From: Verrucomicrobiota bacterium
Lineage (GTDB): Bacteria > Verrucomicrobiota > Verrucomicrobiia > Limisphaerales > UBA1100
Assembly (NCBI GenBank): GCA_030747505.1
Contig: JASLKQ010000034.1
Location: 1-33,076, forward strand
Length of the DNA stretch: 33,076 bases
Reading direction: 5' to 3'
Each line of letters starts with the position of its first letter. The stretch's first letter is position 1. Under the pieces are notes generated by a model. That model had not been told where the DNA came from and ran no database searches. It saw nothing but the letters and a program-made list of their open reading frames with translations. The translations under genes were made by a program, and so were the position numbers. This document shows, one piece after another, positions 1,396 to 23,496 of the stretch.

Positions 1396-3234
1396 ATGAA
1401 GCCTTGTATTCTGCTGTTATTGACCTTGTTCTGGTCGGGTTGCCAATCGGCCCCAGCACGCCCCCTCGAGCTGAACACCATGATCGCGCACTGGGCAAAC
1501 TATGCCCACGAGGACTATCTGTCCTTCGTGAAGGAAGCCCGGCCTGACCTGGTCCAGGTCGGTTTTTATGGCGGACACTACTGGAGCCTATCCCACGCTC
1601 GGCATGGCGGCGGATACCCGGCACATTTCCCCAGGGTGGGCCTCAAGGAAAACCGTGACTGGCTTATCCAACGCAACAAACAACTACATAAACTCAACAC
1701 ATTGGTCATCGGCCATTTCAATATCGAATTCCTGGTGGGCGATCCGACCAGCAAGGAGGGACCACGGGGTTTCTTTAAGTTCTACCGAGAGCTCTGGGAT
1801 GAATCTCAACTAGGGCCCAGGCCGGTGAAGGATCCACTGGAATTACTGGAAAAAAATGCCGACGGCTCCCCGCGCATCAATAACAACTATTCCATCGGAG
1901 GCATGAAGGAATATTGGGCCTGCCTCAACAACCCGCACTGGCGCACAGTGCTCAAGGCGTGGGTGCGCCACGGCATCAACGGCGGCGTGGACGGGTTCAT
2001 GATCAATTATTTTTACCGGCACAACTGCCTGTGCGAACATTGCCAGCGGGAATTTCGCGAATACCTCGGCGGACGCTTCACGGCGGCGGAATTGATGTCG
2101 CAATTTCAAATCAACCAACTGGCCACGCACAAGTTCAAGGAAATCGGCGCGTGGCATAAGCCGGCTGAAACCAATCCCTTTAAACTGGAACAGTTGCGCT
2201 TTTCACAGATGGCCACCAAGGCCTGCTTTGATGAGGTGTTTGTAAAGTATGGCCGTTCATTAAAACCTGACTTAATTGTTGGCCAATGGAACCACATCGG
2301 CAGGTTCAACCAGATTAACAGTGATGAGCGATGTTTATTGCCCAGAGAACTTTGGGCCAAGGATGAGGATTACCTATGGTACAGCACCGGTAACTCTGCT
2401 TTTTACACCGACCTCAAGAACGGCTATCTCGGCGAAGGCACCCTCCTCGCGCGATATATCCGGGGTGCCTCCGGAGGGAAACCCTTCACACTGGGCAAAT
2501 ACGAGGGCACCCGAATTCGCGCTGCCATTGCTGAGCTGGCCGCAAATGGGGGTGTCCCCATGGGTTTCTATACCCGCTTCACTGATGCCCAGGCCAGGAA
2601 GATCATCACTCAATACTACCGGTTCCTCCGGACGCACCGGGATATATACCTGGACAATCAATCTGCTGCACGCAGCGTTTTACTTTACCCAAGACAAGCA
2701 GTACATGGCGGAGAAGTGGAGCCGGTAAAACAATTCCTGAAGCTGGGTGATTCCCTCCTTAATCGACACGTCCTGTTTGATATTCTGCCTGATGACCTCG
2801 CCACCCCCGAGCGCCTGACAGCATACCGGGCCGTCTACCGGGTGGGAGAGAAGGAGCCCGAGCCGGTGAACCATTTTGAAATAGAGGCACCAGCGACCGT
2901 ACGGGCTTCACTCAGTCAACCGGCAAAGGGCAAATCTTTGCACCTGCATCTGGTTAACTACAACCGTACAGAACCCAAAAAACCCAAGAGTGCAGGACGG
3001 GGTATCCAGGATGAAAAACCCATTCAGGCTGAAAATATCCGCATTACGCTTCGCCTTTCTGAAGGTGCTGATCTAAAGCAGGTCAATTTTATTACTCCGG
3101 AAAACAATTCAAAGATTGTGCTTCAAGCAACCCGTTTGGATTCTGGAAAGTTCCAGATTACAGTCCCGCCATTCCTTGTCTATGCGGTGCTCGAACTAGC
3201 CATCCCTGTAAACCCAAAAACACAAACTCCCTGA
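1396..3234 (+). CDS. Exported lipoprotein, putative TIM-barrel glycoside-hydrolase-like protein
   Basis: Lipobox-type signal MKPCILLLLTLFWSGC. Barrel-like segments 'DLVQVGFYGGHYWS', 'GVDGFMINYFYRHNCLCEHCQREFREYL' resemble hypothetical glycosyl hydrolase-like families. Confidence 0.7.
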   Translation: MKPCILLLLTLFWSGCQSAPARPLELNTMIAHWANYAHEDYLSFVKEARPDLVQVGFYGGHYWSLSHARHGGGYPAHFPRVGLKENRDWLIQRNKQLHKLNTLVIGHFNIEFLVGDPTSKEGPRGFFKFYRELWDESQLGPRPVKDPLELLEKNADGSPRINNNYSIGGMKEYWACLNNPHWRTVLKAWVRHGINGGVDGFMINYFYRHNCLCEHCQREFREYLGGRFTAAELMSQFQINQLATHKFKEIGAWHKPAETNPFKLEQLRFSQMATKACFDEVFVKYGRSLKPDLIVGQWNHIGRFNQINSDERCLLPRELWAKDEDYLWYSTGNSAFYTDLKNGYLGEGTLLARYIRGASGGKPFTLGKYEGTRIRAAIAELAANGGVPMGFYTRFTDAQARKIITQYYRFLRTHRDIYLDNQSAARSVLLYPRQAVHGGEVEPVKQFLKLGDSLLNRHVLFDILPDDLATPERLTAYRAVYRVGEKEPEPVNHFEIEAPATVRASLSQPAKGKSLHLHLVNYNRTEPKKPKSAGRGIQDEKPIQAENIRITLRLSEGADLKQVNFITPENNSKIVLQATRLDSGKFQITVPPFLVYAVLELAIPVNPKTQTP

Positions 3235-3243
3235 AGAAAATTC

Positions 3244-6219
3244 ATGCCTAAAATTTTCAGCTATATACTTCTGGTTCATTTCACGATTGGCTGCACCGCT
3301 GTACAACCGAGCCTTCGTATCGACCCGGAAACTTTCCGGAAAGATCAACCCGTGGAAGCCATGCCTGATGGAAACCTGCTGGTCGAGGCGGAGGAGTTTC
3401 AGCCACTTAAGCCTGGATGGGAGGCAAGAAAATGGGGCGAAAACTATTACGCAGCGACTTTTGCCAATTCGTTTCTTAGCCGAAAAGCCTATCTCGGTGC
3501 AGATGAACAGACCGAAGGGCAAGCCGCCATTCAGATCCGTGTGCCCAAGGCCGGACGTTATCTTGTGCTGGTACGCTACGAGGCAGCCTATCGGTTTGAA
3601 ACACAGTTTCGAGTTCGCGTAGAGCAGAAAGGCCGACGCGTCCTGGATCGGCTTTATGGCGCACGTAAAAACCTGAAGATTTGGGCGTTTAGCCAGAAGC
3701 TCAAGACCGAACACGCCTGGAGTTGGGGGGCATCGGAGAATATCGTATGGGAAGGTCACGATGCCTTTGCCGATTTAAAGCCAGGCGTAGCAACAATTAC
3801 ACTTAGTGCCTCCAAGCAACCGGAGCCGGGGGCCAAGCGCAATGTCGATTGCCTCCTGCTCACCACCGACGAGGAACAGGTGAAGATGCGTATCGAGAAG
3901 GAAAAATATTTGCCGCTGGATGGCATGCTCACCCAGGCAGGTGATGTGTTCGTGAAGGTGTCCAATCGTGGCCGCACGGAACTGACTTTTGGTGGTGCGA
4001 ACGCGATTGGCGGTGGCAACTGGCAGCAGCATTCACCCTACTGGGTGCACTTGCGCAACTGGCCAAAAGTAAACGTGAAAGTCGCTCCCGGCAAAAGCAC
4101 CGACTGGGTGGAAGTCGGAGGTGCGATGGATACACTCAATGACGGCCAATGGAACTTCACCGGTAATGGCAAATACCATGCGGAATTTGCGGTGAAGGAA
4201 TCTAATGGAAAACTCACTCCAATCGCTGCCTTCGATGGCGAAGGGGCTCTTAAGCTCGCCGCCGATGCCGACACGCGCTACTCGCGTCGCCTACGCCAGC
4301 AGGAGGACGTGCTTTTCGATTTACTCACCGAGGTGAAGAAAGAACCCCTGCGTGGAAGTGCACCCAGAGAAACCTTGATCTATGGTCACACTTTCTCGCC
4401 TGGGATGGGGGCAAAATACGATAAGGCAGTAACTGAGTTCCGGCAGATGTTCAGTCTGCAGGAAGCTTCGGGCAAAGATAAGGCTAGTACTTACATTGAT
4501 GTGCGCAGCGTTCCCACCGCAAAGCTGGCCGAGTACTGCCTTAACCTCGGGCCACGTGCGAAGCGTATCCGTTGTGTTAGTCTAGGTGATGAGATTCGTC
4601 TGCCCGACCCCAAGAATCCAGTCGCCACTGAAGACATGATTAATTGGCTGAAATCGCTGGGCCTGAATCCTGCAGATATCCTCCCGGGTACGAGCAAGTG
4701 GAGTACAATTCAATATAATCCCGGGACTGAGGCGATGACATCACAACCGGGCATCTACTATTGGTCACGGCGCTACCGGCATCACTATGGAATTCAAGCC
4801 ACCAAGAAACGTACCGATATCCTACGCAAGCATCTACCCAATGCCGGCATCGGTGCCAATTATTCCCCACATTATCCAGCAGAGCATCGTTACCTTGGTG
4901 AAGTCCACAAATGGGTGAGAATCTTTCGTGAGGAAGGTATGACCATGCCGTGGAGTGAGGACTATATTTTCCAGATGCCAGTCGCAACACAACAGATGAA
5001 TAACATCAACCTTGATCTTTTGCGGGCCGGCGTGCGGGATAAACCAAAACAAAAAATCCACTACTACTGCATGCCTCATTGGCCTGGGCAGATCCCGGAA
5101 AACTGGCGGCGGCTTTTTTATGGTGCGCTCGGTCACGGCATGCAGGTGGTGAACCTCTTTGAGTTTCGCCCTGTTCACGCCGCCTATACTGAGAACCACT
5201 GCAGTAATCCTGAAACCTATCGTACAATACTCCGCAGCTTCCGCGAACTGGGATTGTTTGAAGACATCATTCAGTCTGGTCGCAAACGCCCGGCCAAGGC
5301 CGCACTATGGTTCAGTGAGACAGGCGATATATGGTCTGATAATAAAGGTTCCTTCGGAGCCGGAAAACGAACCCTTTATGCGGCAGTAATCCACCAGGAT
5401 ATTCCACTGGATTTTATTATTAAGGGCGAGTCATTGAACGAGTACCACGTTTTATTTCTTACTGACGCGCACGTGTCACGCCGGGATTCTGATGCCATTG
5501 CCAAATGGGTTGGGACTGGCGGCACTCTCTTTGCCACTGCTGGGGCAGGCATGTTTGATGAACTGAACCAACCCAATACCTTGTTGCGCAATGTGCTGGG
5601 AGTGAAACCCATTGCGCTGGACTCACCGGAAAATTCTCAGGTGGAAATGGTGAAACAGGATCTACCTTTCGCTTCACCCATTGATGAAATTACCGACACG
5701 GGCGAACCGACTCCGATATTTGGGGTGCGCAGTCGCGTGAAAGCTGATGGAGCAAAAATGCAGCTCAAATTCAAAAACAACACTCCCGCCCTCACGCTTA
5801 ACGCTCAAGGTCAGGGGCAGGCATACTACGCGGCATTTCTACCGGGATTAACCTATTTTCTTCCCGGCACCCCCAAGGTGCCGGTTGACCGCGGCACACA
5901 CGCGAATGCCTCGGCACACCTCATCCCCAATCAGTTTCACGTAACGATTGAAAAATTACTGCAAGTGGGTAGGAAGTCTGCATTCAATCCTATTAGGTGC
6001 TCCAACAAACTGGTTGAGGCCAACATCATCGATTCACCCAAGGGTAGTGTCGTTATTCTAACCAATTGGAGCAGTAGGCCAATCAAGGAGCTTGAAATAC
6101 AGCTGCCGCCTGATCTAGCAAAGAGGAAGCTGTCGGTTGCTTCAGGGGTAAATCACCAAAGGGAAGGTAACGTAATCAGAATGGATCTTAAGGTGGCCGA
6201 TGCATTAATTCTAAGATGA
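3244..6219 (+). CDS. Large exported lipoprotein: N-terminal CBM6/35-like domain, central TIM-barrel-like glycosidase domain, C-terminal GATase-like (beta-galactosidase trimerisation-like) domain
   Basis: Signal peptide ending in Cys (MPKIFSYILLVHFTIGC). 'LLVEAEEFQPL...AGRYLVLVRY' is CBM-like. 'CVSLGDEIRLP' and 'MPWSEDYIFQ' are plausible catalytic-Glu segments. 'YHVLFLTDAHVSRRDSDAIAKWVGTGGTLFATAGAGMFDE' is GATase-like. Confidence 0.65.
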   Translation: MPKIFSYILLVHFTIGCTAVQPSLRIDPETFRKDQPVEAMPDGNLLVEAEEFQPLKPGWEARKWGENYYAATFANSFLSRKAYLGADEQTEGQAAIQIRVPKAGRYLVLVRYEAAYRFETQFRVRVEQKGRRVLDRLYGARKNLKIWAFSQKLKTEHAWSWGASENIVWEGHDAFADLKPGVATITLSASKQPEPGAKRNVDCLLLTTDEEQVKMRIEKEKYLPLDGMLTQAGDVFVKVSNRGRTELTFGGANAIGGGNWQQHSPYWVHLRNWPKVNVKVAPGKSTDWVEVGGAMDTLNDGQWNFTGNGKYHAEFAVKESNGKLTPIAAFDGEGALKLAADADTRYSRRLRQQEDVLFDLLTEVKKEPLRGSAPRETLIYGHTFSPGMGAKYDKAVTEFRQMFSLQEASGKDKASTYIDVRSVPTAKLAEYCLNLGPRAKRIRCVSLGDEIRLPDPKNPVATEDMINWLKSLGLNPADILPGTSKWSTIQYNPGTEAMTSQPGIYYWSRRYRHHYGIQATKKRTDILRKHLPNAGIGANYSPHYPAEHRYLGEVHKWVRIFREEGMTMPWSEDYIFQMPVATQQMNNINLDLLRAGVRDKPKQKIHYYCMPHWPGQIPENWRRLFYGALGHGMQVVNLFEFRPVHAAYTENHCSNPETYRTILRSFRELGLFEDIIQSGRKRPAKAALWFSETGDIWSDNKGSFGAGKRTLYAAVIHQDIPLDFIIKGESLNEYHVLFLTDAHVSRRDSDAIAKWVGTGGTLFATAGAGMFDELNQPNTLLRNVLGVKPIALDSPENSQVEMVKQDLPFASPIDEITDTGEPTPIFGVRSRVKADGAKMQLKFKNNTPALTLNAQGQGQAYYAAFLPGLTYFLPGTPKVPVDRGTHANASAHLIPNQFHVTIEKLLQVGRKSAFNPIRCSNKLVEANIIDSPKGSVVILTNWSSRPIKELEIQLPPDLAKRKLSVASGVNHQREGNVIRMDLKVADALILR

Positions 6220-7445
6220 AATATTTTCTCACCTTATTAACGATTTGTGTTTTTGGCTGTGCGGCGCCACCCAAACGGATCGCTGCAGTCGTTACTGAGT
6301 ACCGCCACAACTCACACGCCGATGTTATCGTCAGTCGCCTGCTGCTGACCCACGCTCTGGATGGAAAGGGAGAACGTCCAAACCTGAAGCTGGTTTCACT
6401 CTATACCGACCAGGTTCCCGGCAACGATACCAGTCGCAAATGGGCCAAAAAGTTTAACGTTCCCATTTATCAGACCGTAGAACAAACCCTCACCCACGGC
6501 ACCGGCAAGCTGGCTGTTGATGGCGTGTTGCTGGTGGCCGAACACGGCAAGTACCCAAAGAACGCAACAGGAAACACCATTTATCCCAAACGACGGCTTT
6601 TTAATGAGGTGCAGAAGGTCTTTCGCAAGACGGGGCAAACCGCCCCTGTATTCGTGGACAAACACCTGGCAGATAACTGGACTGATGCCAAGTGGCTGCA
6701 TGATACGGCCAGAGAACTTAAAGTGCCGTTGATGGCCGGCTCATCACTTCCGGTGCTCTGGCGTTATCCTCCGGTAGATGTGAAGCGCGGGGCCAAGCTA
6801 AACGAAATCGTAGCCGTTTCCTATCACTCCCTTGATGCTTATGGATATCATGCTTTGGAAATGGTCCAATGCCTGAGTGAACGCCGTGCTGGAGGAGAGA
6901 CCGGTGTCAGGCAGGTCCAAACCTTGACCGGGGATGCCGTTTGGAAAGCCATGGATAACAGGCTTTTTGATCAAGCGCTGCTTCAAGACGCCCTCAAATG
7001 TCTCACGCGCAGCCCGGTTACCGCCCAGCCAAATAAATCCTTAAAAGAGCTGGTGAAAGACCCCGTTCTTTTCGTTATCGAGTATCTTGATGGACTGAAG
7101 GCCTACATCCTCACGTTGAATGGTGCGGTCAGCGAATGGGGGGTGGCGTGGAAAACTCTCAACGGACAGAAGAAATCCACCACCTTCTGGACGCAGGAAG
7201 CCCGGCCTTACATGCATTTCACTTACCTCGTGAAAGGCACCGAAAAGATGTTTCACACCGGCCAACCCACATGGCCTGCTGAGCGGACCCTGATGACCAG
7301 TGCCTTGCTCGATGCCCTGCTTATTTCAAAGAGTAAAAATGGAGTATCCATTCCCACCCCTTACCTAAACTTTAAATACACCACCGAATGGGGGTGGAAG
7401 CAGCCTCCACCTCCACCTCCCGGCCGGCCTTGGAACCAACAGTGA
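6216..7445 (+). CDS. Exported lipoprotein with Gfo/Idh/MocA-like (Rossmann oxidoreductase-like) sequence
   Basis: MKYFLTLLTICVFGC lipobox. 'IAAVVTEYRHNSHADVIVSRLL...LVSLYTDQ...KFNVPIYQTVEQTL...AVDGVLLVAEHGKYPKN...PVFVDKHLA' resembles Gfo/Idh-type proteins. Start overlaps the upstream stop by 4 nt (ATGA). Confidence 0.6.
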   Translation: MKYFLTLLTICVFGCAAPPKRIAAVVTEYRHNSHADVIVSRLLLTHALDGKGERPNLKLVSLYTDQVPGNDTSRKWAKKFNVPIYQTVEQTLTHGTGKLAVDGVLLVAEHGKYPKNATGNTIYPKRRLFNEVQKVFRKTGQTAPVFVDKHLADNWTDAKWLHDTARELKVPLMAGSSLPVLWRYPPVDVKRGAKLNEIVAVSYHSLDAYGYHALEMVQCLSERRAGGETGVRQVQTLTGDAVWKAMDNRLFDQALLQDALKCLTRSPVTAQPNKSLKELVKDPVLFVIEYLDGLKAYILTLNGAVSEWGVAWKTLNGQKKSTTFWTQEARPYMHFTYLVKGTEKMFHTGQPTWPAERTLMTSALLDALLISKSKNGVSIPTPYLNFKYTTEWGWKQPPPPPPGRPWNQQ

Positions 7446-7447
7446 AA

Positions 7448-8305
7448 ATGCTCATGAAATCCATCATGCTACTGTTGGGGTTCGTCTCACTATTTGTCCG
7501 TGGAGCCAACCCTTCCTCAAAAGTCATCCTCATTTCACGTGCTGTTTCTGCCCCCATGATAGACGGCAGGTTAAACGATGCCTGTTGGAAACAGGCTAAA
7601 CCAATCCCGGTAATATATCCTCATGGCAAATCCGGCAAAACACCGGATCCTGTTCCTATGACTACGTGGATGACTTGGGATAAGCACTATCTCTATTTGG
7701 CTTATGAAGTGAATGATACAAATTTAGTTGCGTTGGGTACCGGACAAAAGACTGGACCGCCAAAAAACCGTCGGCCCCAGAGTCTGGAATATGCGCCGGA
7801 GAAGAATCTTGATCTCGCCGAATTCTTCATTTCCTTTGGGAGCAGGCAGTTCTTCTGGGAGATTCATCATAATGCCGCCAACCATCTGAATACCTTGTGG
7901 ATTGAAATCCCGAGCCTCGATCAACTCGCCAAGATTGAGAAGCCAGCTTACCAGCATGTCACTTTTCATCGGGACCGATATCTGCCGGATCAGGGGACCC
8001 GTACCCTTAAGCAGGCGGTCCAGCTAAAAAAGAAAGCCAACAATCAGTTCTCTACCCTTAATGAGTCCAGTGATCGTGACAGCGGTTATAGCGGAGAATT
8101 ACGCCTGCCCTGGGCTGGTCTCCTGTTTGATCAGTCGAAGAAAAAGGGCATACCTCAAATAAAAGACCTAAGGCTGTCGCTTTTGGCTGTGAACCTCAAC
8201 GGTAACAAAGGTAGGGCTCTATATTACTCAAGCGGTTCAGGTATGCCTAAATTAATGTATCATTTCAGCTCCCATAAATGGCCGGTTTATAGGTTTGTAG
8301 ATTAA
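7448..8305 (+). CDS. Exported CBM9-like (carbohydrate-binding family 9-like) domain protein
   Basis: ORF track start 7388 is probably too early; MLMKSIMLLLGFVSLFVRGA (7448 or 7454) is a signal peptide. 'APMIDGRLNDACWKQAKPI...TTWMTWDKHYLYLAYEVNDTNL...ELRLPWAGL' matches the CBM9 pattern. Confidence 0.75.
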   Translation: MLMKSIMLLLGFVSLFVRGANPSSKVILISRAVSAPMIDGRLNDACWKQAKPIPVIYPHGKSGKTPDPVPMTTWMTWDKHYLYLAYEVNDTNLVALGTGQKTGPPKNRRPQSLEYAPEKNLDLAEFFISFGSRQFFWEIHHNAANHLNTLWIEIPSLDQLAKIEKPAYQHVTFHRDRYLPDQGTRTLKQAVQLKKKANNQFSTLNESSDRDSGYSGELRLPWAGLLFDQSKKKGIPQIKDLRLSLLAVNLNGNKGRALYYSSGSGMPKLMYHFSSHKWPVYRFVD

Positions 8306-8432: not shown

Positions 8433-10856
8433 GTGAAACTAATCCCCACATTTCTGCTCCTGTCCGTTACCGCATCGACGTTGTTGTCGGCTGCCCTGTT
8501 TCCCAAGGGGACTGAGACGTTTTTGGAGATGCACTGTTTTGACTGTCATGGTGAAGACAAAAAGAAGGGTGGGTTGGATTTGGAAAATCTGGGTAATGAT
8601 TTGACCGAGGCGGCAGTGTTTACAAAATGGGAACGGGTCTTTGATCGGGTGGACAAGGGCGAGATGCCGCCAGCTAAGGTTAAGGATCGTCCTGCGGCTA
8701 AAGAGCTGGCCGGCTTCCGCGCGTCTCTCGAGTCGCAACTGATGAAAGCGCATGCGGCGGCGAAGGGAACCGTGTTACGCCGACTTAACCAGCGCGAATA
8801 TGCGAATACTATGAACGATCTCTTCGGCACCTCATTGGAATTGGAAGGCATGCTGCCAGAAGATGGTCGTTCACATGAGTTCGATAATGTCGGGCACGCA
8901 CTGGGTATTTCGATGCAGCACATGCAAATGTATCTGAGGGCTGCCGGAGTGGTGCTAAATGAGGCCGTTGCCAAGACGGTTCAGGCGCCCAAGCCGGAAA
9001 AGATCGTGGGGCGGTATACGGACGACAAGGGCGCAAGAAAATTCGTCGGCGACCAGTGGCTGAAGCTCAAGGATGATTCCATCGTTCGATTTGCGCGTAC
9101 GGGTTATCCTACCGGCATGATTCGTTCTGCGCGTACAAGGCAGGAGGGCTTTTACCGGATTAAGGTGCATGGGTTTGCCTATCAATCTGATAAACCGATC
9201 ACATTTTCTGTGGGCCTCACCACCTTTCAGCGGGGTGTGCCGAAGCCGGTGCTCGACTACTTTTCTTTTCCCCCCGGCGGACCAAACAAAATGCACACGG
9301 TTGAACTAACCGCAAAGATCGGCGCAAACTACATGATTAGTATTGAGCCTTACGGCATCATTGATCCGGATTTAGGTATTCGGCGCCGGGATAAAACTCC
9401 CATAACTACTGTGAAAACACCCGGTCTAGGCATTCACTCTGTGGAGATAGAGGGTCCGTTGATTAGCGAATATCCCTCTGCAGGCCATAAGCTACTTTTA
9501 GCCGGTATAAAACGAATAGAGATTCCACCACGCAACCCACATGACCGTGAAAAGAAGTGGTACAAGCCACAGTTTGAAATCAAATCGACCAATGAAAAGG
9601 CCGATGCCGAACAGGCGCTCGGCCGCTTGACCAACGCCGCCTTTCGCCGGTCGGTAGACGCCCGTGAGATCGCGCCTTACATAAAACTCTTTGAAGCCGA
9701 ACGAGCCAAGGGCGAGGCATTTGAATCCGCATTGCGTACGGCGGCTACGGCGGTATTGAGTTCACCTCATTTCCTTTTCCTGCGTGAATCGGCCGGAGCC
9801 CTTGATGACTACGCGCTGGCTAGCCGCCTTTCATATTTCCTTAACCGAACCGCACCCGATGATGAGTTGCTGGCGCTCGCCCACGAAGACAAACTGCGCA
9901 ACAATCTTCGTGCGCAAACCGAACGGTTACTTAAAGACAAACGTTTCGGACGTTTCATCACGGATTTCACTGAGGCATGGCTAAATCTACGCGACATGGA
10001 TTTTACTATACCCGACCGTTCTCTGTATCCGGAGTATGAACCATATCTGCGTTTCTCCATGCCGCTCGAGACAGAGGCGTTTTTGCGCGAACTGATCGAA
10101 GCTAATCATCCCGTCGCCAATATCGTTAAGAGCGATTTTGCCATGATCAATGATCGCATGGCTGAACACTATGGTATCAACGGTGTAACCGGATCACATT
10201 TTCGCAAGGTAAAGCTCCCTGAGGATAGTTGGCGGGGTGGGGTCCTTAGCCAGGGCAGCGTGCTGAAGGTGTCCGCCAATGGTTCGGCCACCTCGCCCGT
10301 GGTACGCGGTGTGTATGTAATGGAGCGCATCCTTGGCATCACCCCCACGCCACCGCCGCCGAATATCCCCGGCGTGGAGCCGGACATCCGCGGTGCATCT
10401 GCCTTGCGCGAGCTATTGGAGAAACACCGCAATGTTGCCAGCTGCGCTTCCTGTCATAACCACATCGATCCACTTGGGTTTGCCTTGGAGAGCTTCGACG
10501 TGACTGGAATGCGTCGCGACCGCTTCCGTAGTAAGGGCGGCGATAAGGTGAACGCCATCGTTCGCGGCCGCAAGGTGGTATACCGCCTTGGGCCTGAGGT
10601 GGATAGTTCCGGCAAGTTTATCGATGGCACACGCTATCAGGATTTCCGCGCCTACCGCGATTATCTTGCCAAGCACGATGACCGTCTGGCCCGAGCCTTC
10701 GCTGGTAAACTGCTCATCTTTGCTACTGGTCGTGAGCTGGGCTTCTCTGATCGTGCCGAGCTCGACCGCATTGTTGCCGATACCGCCCGAAACAAACATC
10801 GCCTTCGCGACCTGCTTCATCGTATCATTCGATCTGAGATTTTTCTCAACAAGTGA
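8433..10856 (+). CDS. PSD1-type planctomycete cytochrome c domain protein (DUF1587/DUF1592/DUF1588/DUF1585)
   Basis: GTG start with signal peptide. 'MHCFDCHGEDKKKGGLDLE' haem-c motif, 'VLRRLNQREYANTMNDLFG', 'FLFLRES...ALASRLSYFLNRTAPDDELL', 'CASCHNHIDPLGFALESFD', C-terminal 'GRELGFSDRAELDRIV'. Confidence 0.93.
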   Translation: MKLIPTFLLLSVTASTLLSAALFPKGTETFLEMHCFDCHGEDKKKGGLDLENLGNDLTEAAVFTKWERVFDRVDKGEMPPAKVKDRPAAKELAGFRASLESQLMKAHAAAKGTVLRRLNQREYANTMNDLFGTSLELEGMLPEDGRSHEFDNVGHALGISMQHMQMYLRAAGVVLNEAVAKTVQAPKPEKIVGRYTDDKGARKFVGDQWLKLKDDSIVRFARTGYPTGMIRSARTRQEGFYRIKVHGFAYQSDKPITFSVGLTTFQRGVPKPVLDYFSFPPGGPNKMHTVELTAKIGANYMISIEPYGIIDPDLGIRRRDKTPITTVKTPGLGIHSVEIEGPLISEYPSAGHKLLLAGIKRIEIPPRNPHDREKKWYKPQFEIKSTNEKADAEQALGRLTNAAFRRSVDAREIAPYIKLFEAERAKGEAFESALRTAATAVLSSPHFLFLRESAGALDDYALASRLSYFLNRTAPDDELLALAHEDKLRNNLRAQTERLLKDKRFGRFITDFTEAWLNLRDMDFTIPDRSLYPEYEPYLRFSMPLETEAFLRELIEANHPVANIVKSDFAMINDRMAEHYGINGVTGSHFRKVKLPEDSWRGGVLSQGSVLKVSANGSATSPVVRGVYVMERILGITPTPPPPNIPGVEPDIRGASALRELLEKHRNVASCASCHNHIDPLGFALESFDVTGMRRDRFRSKGGDKVNAIVRGRKVVYRLGPEVDSSGKFIDGTRYQDFRAYRDYLAKHDDRLARAFAGKLLIFATGRELGFSDRAELDRIVADTARNKHRLRDLLHRIIRSEIFLNK

Positions 10857-10857
10857 G

Positions 10858-12141
10858 ATGAGTCATATCGCTAAAAAACATTCGCTTAATCGCCGTGCCT
10901 TTCTCAAGGGTGCCGGTGCGACTGTAGCTCTGCCGTTCCTGAGTGCCATGACCCCTGCCTTTACCGCGGAACCGACTGCGCCCAAACGATTTGTGGCGAT
11001 GAATGGGGGTCTTGGCTTTCACGCACCCCACTTCATTCCCTCGGAAACCGGTGCGAATTATAAGACGTCCCTTTACCTGCAAAAGCTCGAGAAGCATCGG
11101 AAAGATTTCACGGTGTTTTCAGGCTTGTCCCATCCTAATTCCAATGGAAATAGTGGCCACGCCAGCGAATTGACCTGGCTCACCAGTGCTCCCCGCCCTG
11201 GCTTGGCTGGCTTCAAGAACACCATTTCGCTCGATCAGTTGATGGCCAAGCATATCGGTGCGGCTACGCGGTTTCCTTCGCTTACTGTTGGTGCACGTGG
11301 CCAGTCGCTATCATGGACCGCCAATGGCGTACAGATTCCCGCACAGATGCATCCGGCCAAAATCTTTCGCTCACTCTTTGTAAACGGCACCGAGAGAGAG
11401 GTGGCTGAGGAAATCAAGAACCTTGAACGCGGCCGTAGTATTCTTGATACGGTGCTTAATGATGCTAGAACGCTCAACCTGACCCTTGGCGCACGCGATC
11501 GTGAGAAACTCGATGAGTACTTTACCTCGGTCCGCGAATTGGAAATCCGTTTACAGCAAAACAAACAGTGGGCCAATCGCCCCAAGCCTAAGGTCAACTA
11601 CAAGGAGCCACAGGACGTTGCTGACCGTAACGACATCCTCGCCAAACAACGCCTGATGTACGATCTCATCCTGCTGGCGTTGCAGACTGACTCAACGCGT
11701 GTGATCGCTTTCTCCATCGGCGGTATGAATGCCGTGCCCAGCAATATTCCCGGCGTACACACCGACTGGCACATGCTCTCCCACCATGGACGCGACGAGG
11801 ACAAGATCGAGGAATTGGCCCGCATTGAAGCTGCTGAGTTTGAGGTATTTGGCGAATTCCTCACCAAGTTGAAAAAGGTAAAGGAGTCCGGCGGCCATTT
11901 GCTTGACCACACCGCCATACTGTTCGGCTCCAATCTCGGCAACGCCTCTTCACACAGTTGGCGCAACCTGCCCATCCTGCTCGCTGGTGGGGGTTATAAA
12001 CACGGCCACCACGTTGCCCATGATTCAAACGACAACACCCCCTTCGCCAACCTCTTCGTCCCGCTTGCCCAACGCATGGGCGTGGAAACCGATAAGTTCG
12101 GCAGTAGTACCGCCAGCACCATCCGCGGGCTGGAGTGCTAA
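10858..12141 (+). CDS. DUF1552 family protein
   Basis: Listed ORF starts at 10588 but ATG at 10858 begins MSHIAKKHSLNRRAFLKGAGATVALPFLSAM (Tat-like signal), 1 nt after the upstream stop. 'SGLSHP', 'ISLDQLMAKHIG', 'REKLDEYFTSVRELEIRL' are typical of DUF1552. Confidence 0.92.
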   Translation: MSHIAKKHSLNRRAFLKGAGATVALPFLSAMTPAFTAEPTAPKRFVAMNGGLGFHAPHFIPSETGANYKTSLYLQKLEKHRKDFTVFSGLSHPNSNGNSGHASELTWLTSAPRPGLAGFKNTISLDQLMAKHIGAATRFPSLTVGARGQSLSWTANGVQIPAQMHPAKIFRSLFVNGTEREVAEEIKNLERGRSILDTVLNDARTLNLTLGARDREKLDEYFTSVRELEIRLQQNKQWANRPKPKVNYKEPQDVADRNDILAKQRLMYDLILLALQTDSTRVIAFSIGGMNAVPSNIPGVHTDWHMLSHHGRDEDKIEELARIEAAEFEVFGEFLTKLKKVKESGGHLLDHTAILFGSNLGNASSHSWRNLPILLAGGGYKHGHHVAHDSNDNTPFANLFVPLAQRMGVETDKFGSSTASTIRGLEC

Positions 12142-14971: not shown

Positions 14972-17380
14972 ATGAGACGTTTGGTTTTCATTTTATTTCT
15001 GCTGGTGGTGCTTGTGGCCCGGGCCGATGAAGTCTTTAAAAAGGACGTGTTGCCTGTTTTGCATAAGCATTGTTTTGGCTGTCACGGAGAGAAGAAGCAG
15101 AAAGGGGATCTTAGGCTGGATACACTTGATCCGGATATTGTCCAAGGCACTTCGGCGGAGCGGTGGCATGATGCTTTAAATAAAATTAACCTTGGAGAAA
15201 TGCCCCCTGAAAAAGAGCCTCCCTTAACGGTCTCTGAAAGGAGGAAGTTAACCGGCTGGATTACCCAGCGCCTTAAGATGGCAACTGACATCCGTCGCAA
15301 TGCAGGTGGACAGGCGGTATTAAGACGCCTTAACCGTACTGAGTACCAATATACCATGACCGACCTCCTGGGTTTCGAAATGGATTATAGCGAGAATTTG
15401 CCCTCCGATTCCCGTTCACCTGAAGGCTTCAAGAACAACGGTGCTTCCCTGGGCATGGCTGCCCTGCAAATTGAAAGCAGCCTAAAGACCGCAAGGAAAG
15501 CGTTGGACTTCATCCTCGTGGAAGGGGGGCAGGGCAAGAGGGAAGTCACCCAAATCAACCGAAACAATGGTGCCATGAAAGGCCCCAATAGCAGGCGTTT
15601 CAGTGGCCTTTCCTCGGATCGTCTGGGGCGTGTGAACTTTTGGCATGGGTCCTTCAAGGGTCTGCCCCGGACAGGCAGGTTTACTATTCGGGTGAAGGCC
15701 TACACGGACCGGAAGCCGAATCAGCCCGTACCCATCCTCTATGCTCAATACGGGTATTTCGTTTCCGGATTAACCCTCAATATAATGAGTGATGCTGGAG
15801 AAATTGCGATTACCTCAAGCACTCCCCGGTATTATGAAATTTCCGGTTGGCCCGAGTTCTTTCCCCAACCAGAGGCTCGTGTGCCCGATGGCAAATTGAG
15901 TGGAATTATCGCCTTGCAAAATGCCCTCCATGACGGTGAATCACCACCCAAGGCAATCAACAAGGTAATTGAGGAGAAAGATAAGAAAGGCAAGATTAGG
16001 AAAAAGAAAGTAAAGGTCTACCCCGAGGACCCTGATTTTCCCCGGATTATCATCGAGTCCGTAGAGTTTGTTCGCAATGACTACCCGTCTTGGCCTCCTC
16101 CTTTACACCGGGGAATCATTCGTGAAGGCGAGGACTTGAGCGACTCGAAGGTGGTTAAGGATATATTGAGCCGATTCCTGCGTCGAGCCTGGAGGCGCCC
16201 TGTCAGCGAGGAAGAAAAAGGTAAATGGTTGGCTCACTACGAGGTTATACGGAAGCAGTCGGACACATCTGTCGCAGCCCTCAAGGAAACCTTGTCTGCC
16301 GCCTTAGCTTCCCCTCACTTCCTGTACCTGAGCGAACCTTTCAAGTCCGACAAGCCAAGGAAGCTTAACGCCCATGAGTTGGCCGCCAGGCTGTCCTATT
16401 TTATTTGGAGCTCGATGCCTGATGAGGAGCTATCGGTCCTGGCTGATTCCGGCCGTATTCTGGAAGACTCCGTATTGCAAGGACAGTTTGAACGGATGTT
16501 AAAGGATTCGAGGTCCGATCGATTCGCCAAGGAGTTTTGTGACCAGTGGCTGGATCTTGAAGGGGTTGATCGGGTGGCTGTTAACCCCCAGTACTACAAG
16601 AATTTCGATAATCGCTTGAAGCCCTACATGGCCGGAGAAACCCGGGCATTTTTCAGGGAAATCCTCCGGAGCAATACATCCGCACTGCAATTTCTTGATG
16701 CGGACTTCACCATGCTTAACGCGCCCTTGGCCAAACATTACGGGTTGGAGGGACCTAGATCCCAAAACTTTGAGCGCGTTTCTCTTCGAGGTACCGGTAG
16801 GCCCGGAGGTGTGCTTGGCCATGCCTCCACTCACTTGGCAGGATCGGATGGAGCGGACTCTCACCCAATCAAGCGGGCGGTTTGGATCAGAGAACGCCTG
16901 CTTCATGACCCCCCCAATCCTCCTCCACCTGATGTTCCCGGTGTGGAAAAAAGTGTACCTAACTTTGAGAAGCTTTCGGTTCGGGAACAGCTTGCTGTTC
17001 ATCGGAAAAAAGAGGCCTGTGCAGATTGTCACCGTAGTATTGACCCATGGGGGATTGCTCTTGAGAGATATGACGTGATTGGACTGCAAAGGGAAAAGAC
17101 CGCCCGCCGAAAGAAACCCGTTTCCGCTGAAACCATTCTGCCGGGAAATCATGAAATCTCTGGACTGGGTGATCTCCAGAAATACCTGATCAATGAAAGG
17201 CGCGAGCAATTTACAAAGGCATTGGTAACCAAATTACTGACCTATGCCCTGGGCCGCTCCTTGAGGCTGGCCGATGAACCCTTGATTGAAGAGCTGAACG
17301 CTGAATTTTCAAAGGACGACTACCGGCTTTCAGGATTAATGAAAAATATTGTCACGAGTCGGCCTTTTTTATCGCGATAA
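14972..17380 (+). CDS. Second PSD1-type planctomycete cytochrome c domain protein (DUF1587/1592/1588/1585)
   Basis: Signal peptide. 'KHCFGCHGEKKQKGDLRLDTLD', 'VLRRLNRTEYQYTMTDLLG', 'LAARLSYFIWSSMPDEEL', 'CADCHRSIDPWGIALERYDVIG', C-terminal 'LLTYALGRSLRLAD'. Confidence 0.93.
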   Translation: MRRLVFILFLLVVLVARADEVFKKDVLPVLHKHCFGCHGEKKQKGDLRLDTLDPDIVQGTSAERWHDALNKINLGEMPPEKEPPLTVSERRKLTGWITQRLKMATDIRRNAGGQAVLRRLNRTEYQYTMTDLLGFEMDYSENLPSDSRSPEGFKNNGASLGMAALQIESSLKTARKALDFILVEGGQGKREVTQINRNNGAMKGPNSRRFSGLSSDRLGRVNFWHGSFKGLPRTGRFTIRVKAYTDRKPNQPVPILYAQYGYFVSGLTLNIMSDAGEIAITSSTPRYYEISGWPEFFPQPEARVPDGKLSGIIALQNALHDGESPPKAINKVIEEKDKKGKIRKKKVKVYPEDPDFPRIIIESVEFVRNDYPSWPPPLHRGIIREGEDLSDSKVVKDILSRFLRRAWRRPVSEEEKGKWLAHYEVIRKQSDTSVAALKETLSAALASPHFLYLSEPFKSDKPRKLNAHELAARLSYFIWSSMPDEELSVLADSGRILEDSVLQGQFERMLKDSRSDRFAKEFCDQWLDLEGVDRVAVNPQYYKNFDNRLKPYMAGETRAFFREILRSNTSALQFLDADFTMLNAPLAKHYGLEGPRSQNFERVSLRGTGRPGGVLGHASTHLAGSDGADSHPIKRAVWIRERLLHDPPNPPPPDVPGVEKSVPNFEKLSVREQLAVHRKKEACADCHRSIDPWGIALERYDVIGLQREKTARRKKPVSAETILPGNHEISGLGDLQKYLINERREQFTKALVTKLLTYALGRSLRLADEPLIEELNAEFSKDDYRLSGLMKNIVTSRPFLSR

Positions 17381-17426
17381 CAACCATTAATATGTATTTT
17401 CCAATGAGCACGTGCGGGGGGCTTTT

Positions 17427-18767
17427 ATGAATCAAAACGCATTTCAAATGAACCGAAGAACCATGCTCAAGGCAGCGGGCATATCTCTCGCATTGCCATG
17501 GATGGAATCTCTGATGGGGGCTCAAGTCAAATCACCGCCGAAGAGATTCTGTTCAATCTATTTTCCCTATGGTGTGAGTTTGCCCAAACAAGACGGGGAA
17601 TACGGCCAGTGGAACTGGTTTCCCAAAGGTTCGGGGAGGAACTTTACTTTCAATAAATCCCTTGATGTGCTCGAGCCTTTTCGCGAGCAGGTTACAGTTC
17701 TGGGAGGACTTTCTCATCCCAAGGTGCGACGAATTGGAGGCCATGACAGTGGGGATACATTTCTCACTGGAGAGGAGTTGAGCCTTGCAACTACCGGGCT
17801 GAAAAATTCGATTTCACTCGATCAGTTTATGGCTCGAACCCACAGGCTCGGTGCGACCACCCGCTTTACCAGCCTGACGCTTTCTTCTGACGGGGGCGTT
17901 GGTATGCCGACCCGTGCCAATACCCTTTCTTACTCACGTACGGGGCAGCCCATACCATCCTTCAACCGTCCGGCTCTTGTGTTTGAACGTTTGTTTGGAT
18001 TAAAGGGGGACTCCATTGAAGCCCAGAGAAAAGGCCTGACCCGTACCGGGAGCCATTTGGACTTGTTACTTGATGAAGCCAAAAGCCTGCACCGCAAATT
18101 GGGCAAGGCAGATCAGGGCAAGCTGGATCAGTACCTGACATCCGTTCGTGAGATTGAGCAGGATGTTGAGCGTTCGACACAGTGGTTAAACGTACCCCGT
18201 CCGAAAGTGAGTGCCGAGGGGCTTAGCTTGGATGCAGACAACGAAACACCGGATAAACTCATCCATACGATGCTCGACTTGATTGCCCTTGCTTTCCAAA
18301 CCGATTCCACACGCTTTATTACTTATCAGCTTGCGAGTATGCATGGTGCTATCTCTATTGCGAATAAGTTCCCAACGCTACTGGGTTTCAGTAAAGATGC
18401 TCACGGATTGGCCCATGGTGCCGGTAAGGGAAAGGGAGCAGAGAACCGAGGTAAGTGGGACCGCTATCAGGCCGAATGTCTGGCTTACTTGATGAAGCGA
18501 CTCAGCCATATGAAAGAGGGAGAGGGTTCTGTTTTGGATAATACCTGTCTTTTTTATGGAAGCAGCAACAGTAAGACCCATAACAACAATAACTATCCCC
18601 TGATTCTAGCTGGCGGTAAAAACATGGGCTATCAACACGGCCAATATCTGACTTTCGGCAAGGAAGTTCCCCTCGCCAACCTGTTTGTCACCATACAAAA
18701 ACGATTGGGCGTAAAAGCTGACTCCTTCGCTGATAGCACCGGCGACCTCGACATGTTAGTTGCATAG
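17427..18767 (+). CDS. Second DUF1552 family protein
   Basis: ATG 17427 (MNQNAFQMNRRTMLKAAGISLALPWMESLMGA, Tat-like) is preferred over GTG 17412; G-rich run upstream. 'LGGLSHPKVRRIGGHDSGDTFLTG', 'ISLDQFMART', 'QGKLDQYLTSVREIEQDVERS'. Confidence 0.9.
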   Translation: MNQNAFQMNRRTMLKAAGISLALPWMESLMGAQVKSPPKRFCSIYFPYGVSLPKQDGEYGQWNWFPKGSGRNFTFNKSLDVLEPFREQVTVLGGLSHPKVRRIGGHDSGDTFLTGEELSLATTGLKNSISLDQFMARTHRLGATTRFTSLTLSSDGGVGMPTRANTLSYSRTGQPIPSFNRPALVFERLFGLKGDSIEAQRKGLTRTGSHLDLLLDEAKSLHRKLGKADQGKLDQYLTSVREIEQDVERSTQWLNVPRPKVSAEGLSLDADNETPDKLIHTMLDLIALAFQTDSTRFITYQLASMHGAISIANKFPTLLGFSKDAHGLAHGAGKGKGAENRGKWDRYQAECLAYLMKRLSHMKEGEGSVLDNTCLFYGSSNSKTHNNNNYPLILAGGKNMGYQHGQYLTFGKEVPLANLFVTIQKRLGVKADSFADSTGDLDMLVA

Positions 18768-18772
18768 CGCTG

Positions 18773-20689
18773 ATGATTACCCTTAGTGGTGTCGAAAAAT
18801 CCCATGGCGGACGCACGCTTTTTGGCGATGTTTCTCTTCAGTTAAATCGTGGCGACCGATTGGGTTTGGTGGGGCCCAATGGCGCAGGTAAAACGACCCT
18901 TTTTAATCTCATTCTGGGAGAGGAATCCACTGACGCCGGGAAGGTGGATTTACAACGTAATCTTGATTTGGGCTTTTTGCCTCAGGAGAGTCTTCCTGTA
19001 AAAAATGAAACAGTTCTGGAGTTGGCTATCTCCATTGCTCCGGGGTTTCTTGAGGCTCGCTCAAAAATCCTGAATGACGAACATGTGGAGCCGGAAGTTT
19101 ATGAGTTCTACAATGAAAAAGGCGGCCCTCAACTTGAAGCCAAGGCCAAACGTATCCTATCGGGGTTAAGCTTTCGGGAAACTGATTTCAACCGTCCGGC
19201 CGCGGAAATGAGTGGTGGCTGGATCATGCGTGCCCACTTGGGAAGATTGTTGGTTCAGGAACCGGATCTCTTGATGCTGGATGAACCCACCAACCATTTG
19301 GATTTGGAAGCCCTGATTTGGGTGCAGGCTTATTTGAAGAATTATCCTGGGGCGATCCTGATGATTTCACATGATCGCGAGTTCCTTAATCAGCTGGTGA
19401 AGGGGATATTGGAAATCAGGCGTGAGCGTCTCTTTCGCTGGACAGGTAACTATGATTCTTTTCTGCAGCAGCGTGATGCACATGAACAACAGCAACTTTC
19501 AGCTCACAAAAACCAGCAACGGCAAATCGAGCATCTTCAAACTTTTGTTGATCGTTTTGGTGCCAAAAACACCAAGGCTACTCAAGCCAAGAGCAAGCAG
19601 AAGCAAATCGACCGGATGAAGGCGGATCTGGCTGAGGCCCCTCAGGGTCAAGACCGGCAAATGAAAGGTTTTCGATTTCCTCAGCCTGAACGTAGTGGGC
19701 AGCGGGTTCTGAGCTTGAAAAAGGTCGATTTTGCCTATGGAAATAACGTTGTTTACGCGGGCATGGAATGTGAAGTGGAACGGGGTCAACGCACTGTTTT
19801 GGTGGGGCCAAATGGGGCGGGTAAATCAACCCTGCTCAAACTTATGGCTGGTGTGCTTAAGCCTCAATCAGGGGTTCGTAATCTGGGTCATAATGTGAAG
19901 AGTGGATATTTTTCACAGAATCGCGTGGATGTATTGAATCCAGAGCATACCGCATTGGAAGAGGCAATGGACTGTCCGCAGGCGCTTACCGAGGAACGGG
20001 CCCGTACGGTTCTGGGTTCATTTCTCTTTCGCGGTGATGATGTATTCAAGCGCGTGAGTGTTTTGAGTGGCGGGGAAAAAAGCCGCTTGGCCTTGGTGAA
20101 GCTCCTTTTGGACCCACCCAATTTTTTACTGATGGACGAGCCGACCACGCATCTTGATATGGCCAGTATCGATGCGCTGATTGCCGCCTTGAAGCAGTAT
20201 GAAGGAACCCTGGTATTTATCAGTCACGACGTTCATTTTATTCGCAAGATATCTGAACATACCATTCATGTGAATGCCGGGAAACTGAGAAACTTTCCCG
20301 GTGGCTACGATTATTATCTTCAGAAGACAGAGGCGGAAAATGCACGTGCAGGCCTTACAAGTGGAGGTAAATCATCACTTGCCAAATCAACTGGAGCCTC
20401 CGGTAAAGAAGATAAAAAAGCTCGAAAACGCGCGGAGGCAGAGGCAAGAAATACGCGTTCGCGGGAGAGAAAAGGTTTCGAGAAAGAGGTTAAACGCCTC
20501 GAGGGGGAAATTCAAATCGCCGAGGCGAAAATTGCCGAGTTAACTCAGGAGCTCGAGAAGCCTGAAACCTATGACAACCCCGGCCTCGCCATGAACATCA
20601 ACCGTGAGTTAACCACGGTTCAATCCACCTTGGATTGCCTGACTCCGGAATGGGAAGAGGCGGTCCAAAAGCTGGAAAAGATCGGTTAA
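18773..20689 (+). CDS. ABC-F family ATPase (tandem NBDs, Uup/EttA-like)
   Basis: Two Walker A motifs (GPNGAGKTT, GPNGAGKST), signatures 'MSGGW' and 'LSGGEKSRLALVKLLL', 'LMLDEPTNHLD' and 'LMDEPTTHLD', no TM segments, basic/coiled-coil C-terminal extension. Confidence 0.95.
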   Translation: MITLSGVEKSHGGRTLFGDVSLQLNRGDRLGLVGPNGAGKTTLFNLILGEESTDAGKVDLQRNLDLGFLPQESLPVKNETVLELAISIAPGFLEARSKILNDEHVEPEVYEFYNEKGGPQLEAKAKRILSGLSFRETDFNRPAAEMSGGWIMRAHLGRLLVQEPDLLMLDEPTNHLDLEALIWVQAYLKNYPGAILMISHDREFLNQLVKGILEIRRERLFRWTGNYDSFLQQRDAHEQQQLSAHKNQQRQIEHLQTFVDRFGAKNTKATQAKSKQKQIDRMKADLAEAPQGQDRQMKGFRFPQPERSGQRVLSLKKVDFAYGNNVVYAGMECEVERGQRTVLVGPNGAGKSTLLKLMAGVLKPQSGVRNLGHNVKSGYFSQNRVDVLNPEHTALEEAMDCPQALTEERARTVLGSFLFRGDDVFKRVSVLSGGEKSRLALVKLLLDPPNFLLMDEPTTHLDMASIDALIAALKQYEGTLVFISHDVHFIRKISEHTIHVNAGKLRNFPGGYDYYLQKTEAENARAGLTSGGKSSLAKSTGASGKEDKKARKRAEAEARNTRSRERKGFEKEVKRLEGEIQIAEAKIAELTQELEKPETYDNPGLAMNINRELTTVQSTLDCLTPEWEEAVQKLEKIG

Positions 20690-21306
20690 AGTTCTTTGAT
20701 TTTAATGTTTCGGAAATGGAGATTGTTGGGTTCGCCGTGGTCCTGCAGGCCGATGTGTCCCTCCAGGGGCCGGTCCTTCATGGGCGTCTTGTCCAGCTGG
20801 ATGTCCACGATTCCTTCGCCGTTAAGCTGCACCTTCAGGTGGTGGCCCTTGCAGGTCACAATCATGGTGTTCCACTGACCGGGTTTCCTGGACATGTTTT
20901 TGGATGCACCCACCGTGCGAATGATGCCGCCGTGATCGTGCGGCCCGACTTTCTTTTTGCCAAATGAATCTAGCACCTGTGCCTCTATGCCGGTATTGAC
21001 CGGATTCTTCAGGTCACCCACACGGAAGTGAATACCACTGTTACCCTTGGGCGGGTACTTGTATTCCACGTGCAGTACAAAGTCCTTGTATTTCTTATTG
21101 CTCCAGAGATAGGCGCTGTAGCGTTGCCAGCCTTTTTCCCCTTTGCGTGGCTGGATGAGCAGTGAACCATCCTTTTGCGGAATCCAATTTCCGGTGGTCT
21201 GCCAACCGGTGAGGTCCTTGCCGTTGTAGAGCGTTACCCAGTCTTTGTCTTCGGCAGGCAGTAGTGGAGCGAGTGCGATGAGAGTGATCAGGAGTGTTTT
21301 CTTCAT
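20686..21306 (-). CDS. DUF1080 domain protein (3-keto-disaccharide hydrolase-like), exported
   Basis: MKKTLLITLIALAPLLPA signal. 'DWVTLYNGKDLTGWQ...GNSGIHFRV...GQWNTMIVTCKGHHLKVQLNGEGIVDI...PLEGHIGLQDHG...LHFRNIKIKEL' is diagnostic. Confidence 0.95.
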   Translation of the reverse strand: MKKTLLITLIALAPLLPAEDKDWVTLYNGKDLTGWQTTGNWIPQKDGSLLIQPRKGEKGWQRYSAYLWSNKKYKDFVLHVEYKYPPKGNSGIHFRVGDLKNPVNTGIEAQVLDSFGKKKVGPHDHGGIIRTVGASKNMSRKPGQWNTMIVTCKGHHLKVQLNGEGIVDIQLDKTPMKDRPLEGHIGLQDHGEPNNLHFRNIKIKEL

Positions 21307-21314
21307 GATGGCTT

Positions 21315-21971
21315 CTACTTCAGCTCGATGATTTTGAGATTGCGCCAGCTAACCTCAAAGGGGCCAGATCCCTTGCGGATACCGTGTACCTGAAGGCCGA
21401 TGAATCCCTTTGGATGGCTTTTGAATTTTTCTTCGTGAACTAGATCTGATATTTGATGATCGTTGATCCATACCTGAATGCGTGGTCCCTGCGCCAGCAC
21501 GCGATAGGCGTTCCATTGCTCGTCCTTAAAATGTTTGTGTGGCTTACGTTTGTCTTTGGGGGTCATCCAGCCACCGGCCGCCTCACCATAGATGTAGCCT
21601 GACTCCGCCCCGTTCTTGCCGCTCATCTCAATCTCCACCTGGGGTCCGTTTACGCGGCCCTTGGGGCCATCTTTTGTTTGTGATCGAATCTGAACACCAC
21701 TGTTGAGCCCATTATCCACTTTGACTTCAAATTTTAGGTCAAAATTGCCATACAATTTATCAGAGCAAAGAAATGAGTTCGGGCTGCCTTCCTTTGTTTT
21801 CCCCACAATCGCATTATTTACCACGCGATAAGTTGCGGTTCCATTGCGCTGGGTCCATCCTTTGAGCGTTTTACCATCAAAAATTGTTTTGTATGTTTTG
21901 TCCTTTGCTTGGCCGTCTAAGACGATCAAAGACAAGATCACCATTGAAAGAATGTGCTTGGTCATGCGCAA
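21315..21971 (-). CDS. DUF1080 domain protein (second, tandem), exported
   Basis: 'YKTIFDGKTLKGWTQRNG...NGLNSGVQIRS...QWNAYRVLAQGPRIQVWINDHQISDL...HPKGFIGLQVHG...VSWRNLKIIELK'. Start may be 21965. Confidence 0.94.
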   Translation of the reverse strand: MRMTKHILSMVILSLIVLDGQAKDKTYKTIFDGKTLKGWTQRNGTATYRVVNNAIVGKTKEGSPNSFLCSDKLYGNFDLKFEVKVDNGLNSGVQIRSQTKDGPKGRVNGPQVEIEMSGKNGAESGYIYGEAAGGWMTPKDKRKPHKHFKDEQWNAYRVLAQGPRIQVWINDHQISDLVHEEKFKSHPKGFIGLQVHGIRKGSGPFEVSWRNLKIIELK

Positions 21972-22080: not shown

Positions 22081-23019
22081 ATGGATAGCTCAATTTTTTG
22101 CGGCGGTATTCCCGCCATTATGACCCCCTGCAACGCTGACCGTACTCCGAACGTGGAGGCTTTGGTTGAAAAGGCTCAGGAGCTCATTGGAACCGGCATG
22201 AATGCAGTGGTTTATTGTGGTTCGATGGGCGATTGGCCGTTGGTTACTGATGCAGATCGCCAGAAGGGAGTGGCTGCATTAGCTGAAGCGGGTGTGCCGG
22301 TTATTGTCGGGACTGGGGCAGTAAATACAAAGACTGCCGTGACCCATGCAAAGCACGCGCAAGAGGTTGGAGCCAGGGGATTAATGGTGATTCCGCGATT
22401 ACTTTCCCGTGGCACATCTCCCGCTGCGCAGCGAAATCATTTTGCGGCGATTTTAGAGGCGGCACCCAAACTGCCGGCAGTCATCTACAACAGTCCCTAC
22501 TATGGCTTTGAAACCAAGGCGGATTTATTTTTTGATTTACAGACTGAATACCCAAACCTGGTCGGGTTTAAAGAGTTTGGTGGGGCTGATGCACTGAGTT
22601 ATGCCGCTGAACATATCACCAATAAGGATGATAATTTGGTTCTGATGGCCGGTGTGGATACACAGGTCCTCCATGGTTTTGTTAATTGTGGTGCCCGCGG
22701 GGCCATCACCGGAATAGGAAACTGTCTGCCCGTGGAAGTTCTGCATTACATTAAACTTTGTGAAAAAGCTGCTGAGGGTTGTGCGCAGAGCCGCGTCTAT
22801 GCCAGGGAGTTGGAGCAGGCACTTTTGGTTTTATCCACCTTTGATGAAGGCCCGGATCTGGTGCTCTATTACAAATATCTGCTGGTACTTCTAGGCGACT
22901 CAAATTACGAATACCATTTCAACGACTCCGATGGACTCAGCGAAAGTCAGAGCCGCTATGCAGAGTCGCAGCTGAGGCTTTTTCAAAACTGGTGGGCCAG
23001 CTGGAACGGGAAACCCTGA
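22081..23019 (+). CDS. DHDPS/NAL family class I aldolase-type protein
   Basis: 'FCGGIPAIMTPCNADRTPN', 'VIYNSPYYGF' (Tyr motif) and 'LVGFKEFGG' (Schiff-base Lys) follow the DHDPS family layout. Confidence 0.92.
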   Translation: MDSSIFCGGIPAIMTPCNADRTPNVEALVEKAQELIGTGMNAVVYCGSMGDWPLVTDADRQKGVAALAEAGVPVIVGTGAVNTKTAVTHAKHAQEVGARGLMVIPRLLSRGTSPAAQRNHFAAILEAAPKLPAVIYNSPYYGFETKADLFFDLQTEYPNLVGFKEFGGADALSYAAEHITNKDDNLVLMAGVDTQVLHGFVNCGARGAITGIGNCLPVEVLHYIKLCEKAAEGCAQSRVYARELEQALLVLSTFDEGPDLVLYYKYLLVLLGDSNYEYHFNDSDGLSESQSRYAESQLRLFQNWWASWNGKP

Positions 23020-23022
23020 GCT

Positions 23023-23490: not shown

Positions 23491-23496
23491 CTTAAT

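Follow-up and report, generated by a model that had tools for sequence, protein, structure and literature searches.

An exported four-gene block from a Verrucomicrobiota genome and an unnamed Gfo/Idh-fold family that may act on oxidised sugars

The window analyzed here, a stretch of 33,076 nucleotides, belongs to a marine-type Verrucomicrobiota MAG of 3.46 Mb (91% complete). Four consecutive genes for exported proteins, g1 to g4, lie on its forward strand. The first, g1 (1396..3234, +), encodes a 612-aa predicted lipoprotein with a glycosidase-type (beta/alpha)8 barrel, and g2 (3244..6219, +) a 991-aa predicted lipoprotein with a CBM-like N-terminus, a GH42-like barrel and a GH42M domain. A 409-aa predicted lipoprotein with a Gfo/Idh/MocA fold is encoded by g3 (6216..7445, +), and a 285-aa exported, stand-alone CBM9-like protein by g4 (7448..8305, +). 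The gap between g1 and g2 is 9 nt; g2 and g3 share 4 nt (ATGA), an overlap kept in sister genomes G014, G015 and G018; and g3 and g4 are 2 nt apart, given the ATG at 7448 that was taken as the g4 start (7388 is merely the first start codon in this frame). Open reading frames, order, strand and spacing (9, -4 and 2 nt) are thus as described in the initial annotation, and its lipobox signals for g1-g3 and plain signal peptide for g4 were also recovered. The window copies of all three genes show a weak lipobox Cys; in sister species it is clear, e.g., 'LFTGC' in g1 and 'LTGC' in g2 of G001, and 'IGCAAPPKR' or 'SCAAPPKR' in g3 of several genomes. A promoter/terminator scan found no promoter- or terminator-like site above shuffle background between the genes, and g1-g4 are likely carried on a single transcript, as had been proposed. 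The block was also said not to be a standard PUL, which agrees with the absence of a SusC/SusD pair among the main window genes scanned for domains, i.e., those other than short ORFs, the DUF1552-like ORF at 17412-18767 and the DEAD-helicase ORF.

Structure prediction, suggested as a check on the proposed folds, gave a glycosidase-type fold for g1. Its AlphaFold2 model (pLDDT 89.6) matched the alpha-agarase 9m0b (GH96) in Foldseek with an E-value of 7.9e-20, and GH66, GH151 and GH42 barrels were also matched; GH96 alpha-agarase, GH66 dextranase and GH151 fucosidase are closest in structure to this barrel. Sequence profiles were less informative. No Pfam family matched g1 above cut-off (PF02449 scored 14.5 bits against a cut-off of 21), its profile reached GH42 structures in PDB only weakly (3e-4), and NCBIfam/Pfam scans of g1, g2 and g3 returned nothing decisive except GH42M in g2. 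Like GH42 beta-galactosidases, g1 has a CxCxxC motif and a glutamate after beta-7 (E370, at the nucleophile site; Glu in 26 of 27 homologues and Asp in one), and E311 is invariant among these homologues. Unlike them, it has neither a confident PF02449 match nor the acid/base Glu after beta-4: the NE of GH42 is NY in nearly all 27 homologues and Glu in none, and the strand ends in INYFYRH, with an acid there in 0/27. The catalytic beta-4 Asp of the GH96/GH66/GH151 group, which forms the pairs Asp994/Glu1129 in GH96 (PMC11311870) and Asp154/Glu235 in GH151 (PMC10154630), apparently is replaced by Asn/Thr in 27/27 homologues, the position having been mapped by motif and strand rather than by superposition. 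Since g1 lacks the carboxylate at beta-4 that serves catalysis in GH42, GH66, GH96 and GH151, its function as a hydrolase is unproven, and the barrel may belong to a binding protein or to a glycosidase of a non-standard type.

Among the four proteins, g2 is the most credible hydrolase. Its GH42M domain (PF08532, trimerisation-like; residues 710-865) scored 38.7 bits against a cut-off of 25.8 (E 9.7e-10), and its profile matched PDB beta-galactosidases at 1.5e-10. The GH42 catalytic barrel (PF02449) gave no Pfam match in g2, and the profile match to GH42 barrels in PDB was weak. In the homologue alignment, GDE450 is invariant and SED573 conserved within the middle region. Like GH42 beta-galactosidases, g2 has conserved carboxylates at two sites as well as the GH42M domain; it differs from them in having no confident PF02449 match. 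Its N-terminal region is CBM35-like, below threshold. Of the two barrel hydrolases initially annotated, g1 keeps a glycosidase-type barrel that lacks the beta-4 carboxylate, and g2, which is GH42-like, is the likely hydrolase. The CBM9-like assignment of g4 held: CBM9_1 (PF06452) matched residues 58-115 (ORF numbered from 7388) with 29.9 bits against a cut-off of 23.4 (E 6.1e-7). Single-sequence phmmer searches of PDB with g3 or g4 gave noise or nothing.

The AlphaFold2 model of g3 (pLDDT 97) has an N-terminal Rossmann domain and a C-terminal alpha/beta domain in the Gfo/Idh/MocA layout. The best 50 PDB matches listed by Foldseek all belong to this superfamily (best E 1.5e-13; TM 0.45-0.56), and GFOR itself is among the matches listed. 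A profile built from 95 homologues placed Gfo/Idh proteins in all of the top five PDB positions at marginal E-values, 0.02 and above, and a profile-profile comparison by hhalign aligned g3 with canonical Gfo/Idh proteins of the same genome (E 5.5e-5), placing TEYRHNSHA of g3 opposite the GxGxxG loop and its DKHLA opposite EKPLA. Hence, the Gfo/Idh-like fold initially annotated was borne out. The dinucleotide-binding loop was not found: Gly occurs at positions 27, 29 or 32 in 0/95 homologues, whereas GxG is present in 11 of 12 canonical paralogues of the same genome. Since the loop is absent in 95/95 homologues, g3 does not appear, from its sequence, to be an ordinary NAD(P) oxidoreductase. K149, at the EKP position, is invariant in a motif that itself reads D-K-H; H34, E109, H110, D148, K149, Y209, H212, R224 and E228 are fully or almost fully conserved, and Q66 is counted among the invariant residues.

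Compared with Gfo/Idh/MocA proteins such as Zymomonas glucose-fructose oxidoreductase and RgNanOx, g3 is alike in whole-chain fold, in the lysine at the EKP position and in a distal conserved histidine, and many members of its family share Tat-like export signals. It differs in having no GxGxxG, a DKH in place of EKP, no PF01408 match at E-values up to 1, and its own invariant set (EHGxY, AGSSxP, YGFHxLE and GGExG). No Pfam or NCBIfam entry was found for the family. Most PVC members are predicted to be exported; a simple pattern found Tat-like signals in 34 standalone proteins, in place of which the clade of the window has a lipobox Cys. Homologues reach Acidobacteriota, Bacteroidota and Bacillota. 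In addition, tandem paralogues occur in many planctomycetal and verrucomicrobial genomes (G100:C46, G047:C172, G108:C76 and G022:C286).

Domain fusions were examined in 110 g3 loci, which came from 146 relatives together with 80 named contigs. As the C-terminal partner, the g3 domain is joined to a GSDH-type dehydrogenase (PF07995, E 1e-33) with a cytochrome c domain in four loci (L093, L104, L105 and L112), to g1 in L052 and L102, to a GHL10-like barrel in L051 (sub-threshold, 4e-5), and to a beta-propeller in 10 loci, some of which run off contig ends; the fused frames of L103 and L105 also end at contig ends. A C-terminal DUF1080 domain (PF06439, 3-keto-disaccharide hydrolase; 1.6e-41) follows g3 in L068 and L069. 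The propeller-like domain (420-460 aa) has a mean column identity of 71% among six sequences (L080, L088, L090, L094, L100 and L113); it was identified weakly, with SGL/Reg_prop below or near cut-off, and a profile search found no relative in PDB. Long frames in L057, L070, L101 and L138 were rejected as over-extended ORFs because no domain matched their upstream part and g3 was directly preceded by a signal peptide.

Five planctomycetal or verrucomicrobial loci share a trio of g1, a PQQ-type dehydrogenase and g3. In L098, both junctions between the three genes are 4-nt overlaps; a g1+g3 fusion is followed by the dehydrogenase in L052 and L102; and g1 is followed by a dehydrogenase+g3 fusion in L104 and L112. 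L052 belongs to the window's own taxonomic order, and the other four loci to Planctomycetota, Akkermansiaceae and Roseibacillus. On the g3 tree, the g1, dehydrogenase and propeller fusions fall inside one supported clade that includes the window, with at least two origins of g1 fusions and four changes in PQQ adjacency. For g1, g2 and the dehydrogenase, 9-10 loci each were observed against a rough chance expectation of 0.15-0.3 loci, an estimate that assumes a gene number and ignores kinship. Thus g3 acts as a hub of varied fusions and partners. The recurrent partner of g1 and g3 resembles soluble aldose dehydrogenase/quinoprotein glucose dehydrogenase (GSDH, PF07995) and comes with haem c; PQQ use by these dehydrogenases is putative.

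The window has g2 where the trio of its relatives has the dehydrogenase, and no PQQ-type dehydrogenase adjoins g1-g4 or lies elsewhere in the window. A close homologue of the enzyme is present in the source genome (G000) on another contig (C217), and PqqE was not detected above cut-off in that genome. The congeneric G001 has the dehydrogenase gene immediately before g1-g2, with g2-g3 on another contig. The initial annotation had proposed a search for co-occurrence of all four genes in other genomes, and wide co-occurrence was not observed: g4 was found in 8 of 146 relatives and was seen beside g3 only in the window and in G006 (L035), and g1 is often apart from g2-g3. Carriers of g1 usually also have g3 (23 of 25, against a g3 base rate of 60/146; hypergeometric 9e-9, kinship uncorrected), often on different contigs. 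Because g4 is rare and the g3 of g1 carriers is often on a different contig, the block is a mosaic of parts that loosely travel together, and a fixed four-gene system across the phylum, with g4 so rare and g1 often alone, was rejected.

The 3-keto-glycoside breakdown of glycans in Bacteroides proceeds by oxidation, elimination and hydration and uses DUF1080 and Gfo/Idh proteins. The systems described here are similar in their g3-DUF1080 fusions, which point to keto-sugar chemistry as a potential function, and in the abundance of both domains in the source genome (33 DUF1080 and 41 Gfo/Idh domains). They differ in that the recurrent oxidant would be a PQQ-type dehydrogenase/cytochrome c, that GH42-like barrels are included, and that the Gfo/Idh-like part has no NAD loop. 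Two adjacent exported DUF1080 genes occur in the window itself (20686-21971, -), 12.4 kb away and on the strand opposite g1-g4. Planctomycetes are reported to be enriched in DUF1080 proteins, for which xanthan was proposed as a substrate (PMC5673643).

From the folds, export signals, co-localisation, fusions and motif loss, which were computed directly, we infer a class of substrate, an order of steps and a chemistry for g3. With moderate confidence, g1-g4 can be read as one arrangement of a modular exported glycan cassette of Verrucomicrobiota and Planctomycetota, in which g3 works on a sugar oxidised by a PQQ-type dehydrogenase; together, the four proteins would probably take a polysaccharide apart. 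The lipoproteins g1-g3 would be anchored to a membrane and exposed to either the periplasm or the medium. Binding would fall to g4, as a carbohydrate-binding accessory, and to parts of g2, and hydrolysis is likely due to g2; the g1 barrel, which is of the GH42/GH66/GH96/GH151 kind, might use a non-standard mechanism to bind or cleave the glycan. The oxidised sugar on which g3 would act (a lactone, keto-sugar or aldonic end) would come from a separate PQQ-type dehydrogenase/cytochrome c, which is fused or adjacent to g3 in related genomes. As g3 has lost the dinucleotide loop but still has the EKP-type lysine and the distal histidine, its step is probably non-redox or non-classical (elimination, hydration, isomerisation or epimerisation), or else a cofactor is held another way. 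The oxidative step initially suggested for the block is supported for the family by the PQQ-type dehydrogenase/cytochrome c fusions and operons and by the DUF1080 fusions, although it is probably the dehydrogenase, and not g3, that does the oxidising. Fucoidan, named earlier as a candidate glycan, received no support.

More tentatively, and with considerable doubt, g3 could represent a large, unnamed and mostly exported Gfo/Idh-fold family that has dropped nicotinamide binding for a new step on oxidised sugars, and that, in Planctomycetota and Verrucomicrobiota, forms the exchangeable core of an oxidative pathway for polysaccharides coupled to PQQ and cytochrome c. A true NAD(P) sugar oxidoreductase, with its cofactor permanently bound as in Tat-exported GFOR and working with DUF1080 in a 3-keto-glycoside pathway, would explain the fold, the GFOR match, the invariant lysine, a conserved Asp65 after beta-2, the many Tat-like signals and the DUF1080 fusions. 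We nevertheless consider it unlikely: the glycines retained by nearly all canonical paralogues are missing from all 95 homologues, their replacements (Thr and Tyr/Trp) are themselves conserved, and PF01408 does not match. It is less likely still that g3 is a non-catalytic domain, serving either to bind sugar ligands or as a scaffold for the enzymes fused to it. Loss of the cofactor loop and recurrent fusion to different catalytic domains would fit such a role; however, the invariant ionisable residues E109, H110, D148, K149, H212, R224 and E228 look more like an active site than like the surface of a lectin, and the domain is standalone in most loci.

The remaining alternative places the cassette outside glycan metabolism, with g3 acting on other small molecules and its neighbors varying by chance. 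Many g3 genes have no recurrent neighbor, and homologues in Firmicutes and Bacteroidota have genes for creatininase, MlrC-like, aminotransferase and GGT proteins nearby. Against this, glycosidase-like, sugar-dehydrogenase, CBM9 and DUF1080 partners recur far above the rough chance expectation, and most partners cluster inside one supported clade of the g3 tree, so we regard this reading as improbable for the cassette. The homologues of Paenibacillus and Cohnella (L142 and L151; 38-42% identity) apparently have no signal peptides and are found near creatininase and SDR genes, and L151 also near an FAD oxidoreductase gene. Because of these homologues, the g3 family as a whole is not glycan-specific.

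DUF1080 and Gfo/Idh genes are very numerous in Planctomycetota and Verrucomicrobiota, and little is known of what they do. The trio of a glycosidase-like barrel, a quinoprotein-type sugar dehydrogenase with haem c and a Gfo/Idh protein without the NAD loop, joined in several fusion orders, offers a concrete, testable unit for a potential periplasmic oxidative breakdown of glycans, and the g3 family, nameless in Pfam and NCBIfam, offers an assayable chemistry.

Several other gene groups were noted near the block and its homologues. Sulfatases adjoin g2-g3 in sister genomes. Two separate pairs of PSD/PSCyt cytochrome and DUF1552 genes occur in the window at 8433-12141 and 14972-18767, flanking a sulfatase gene and a DUF4832 (GH42-like) gene. 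In addition, genes for a DHDPS-type aldolase, a 155-aa protein (23023-23490) with no Pfam match and a xylose-isomerase-like TIM barrel stand in a row at 22081-24324, possibly forming a sugar-acid catabolic operon.
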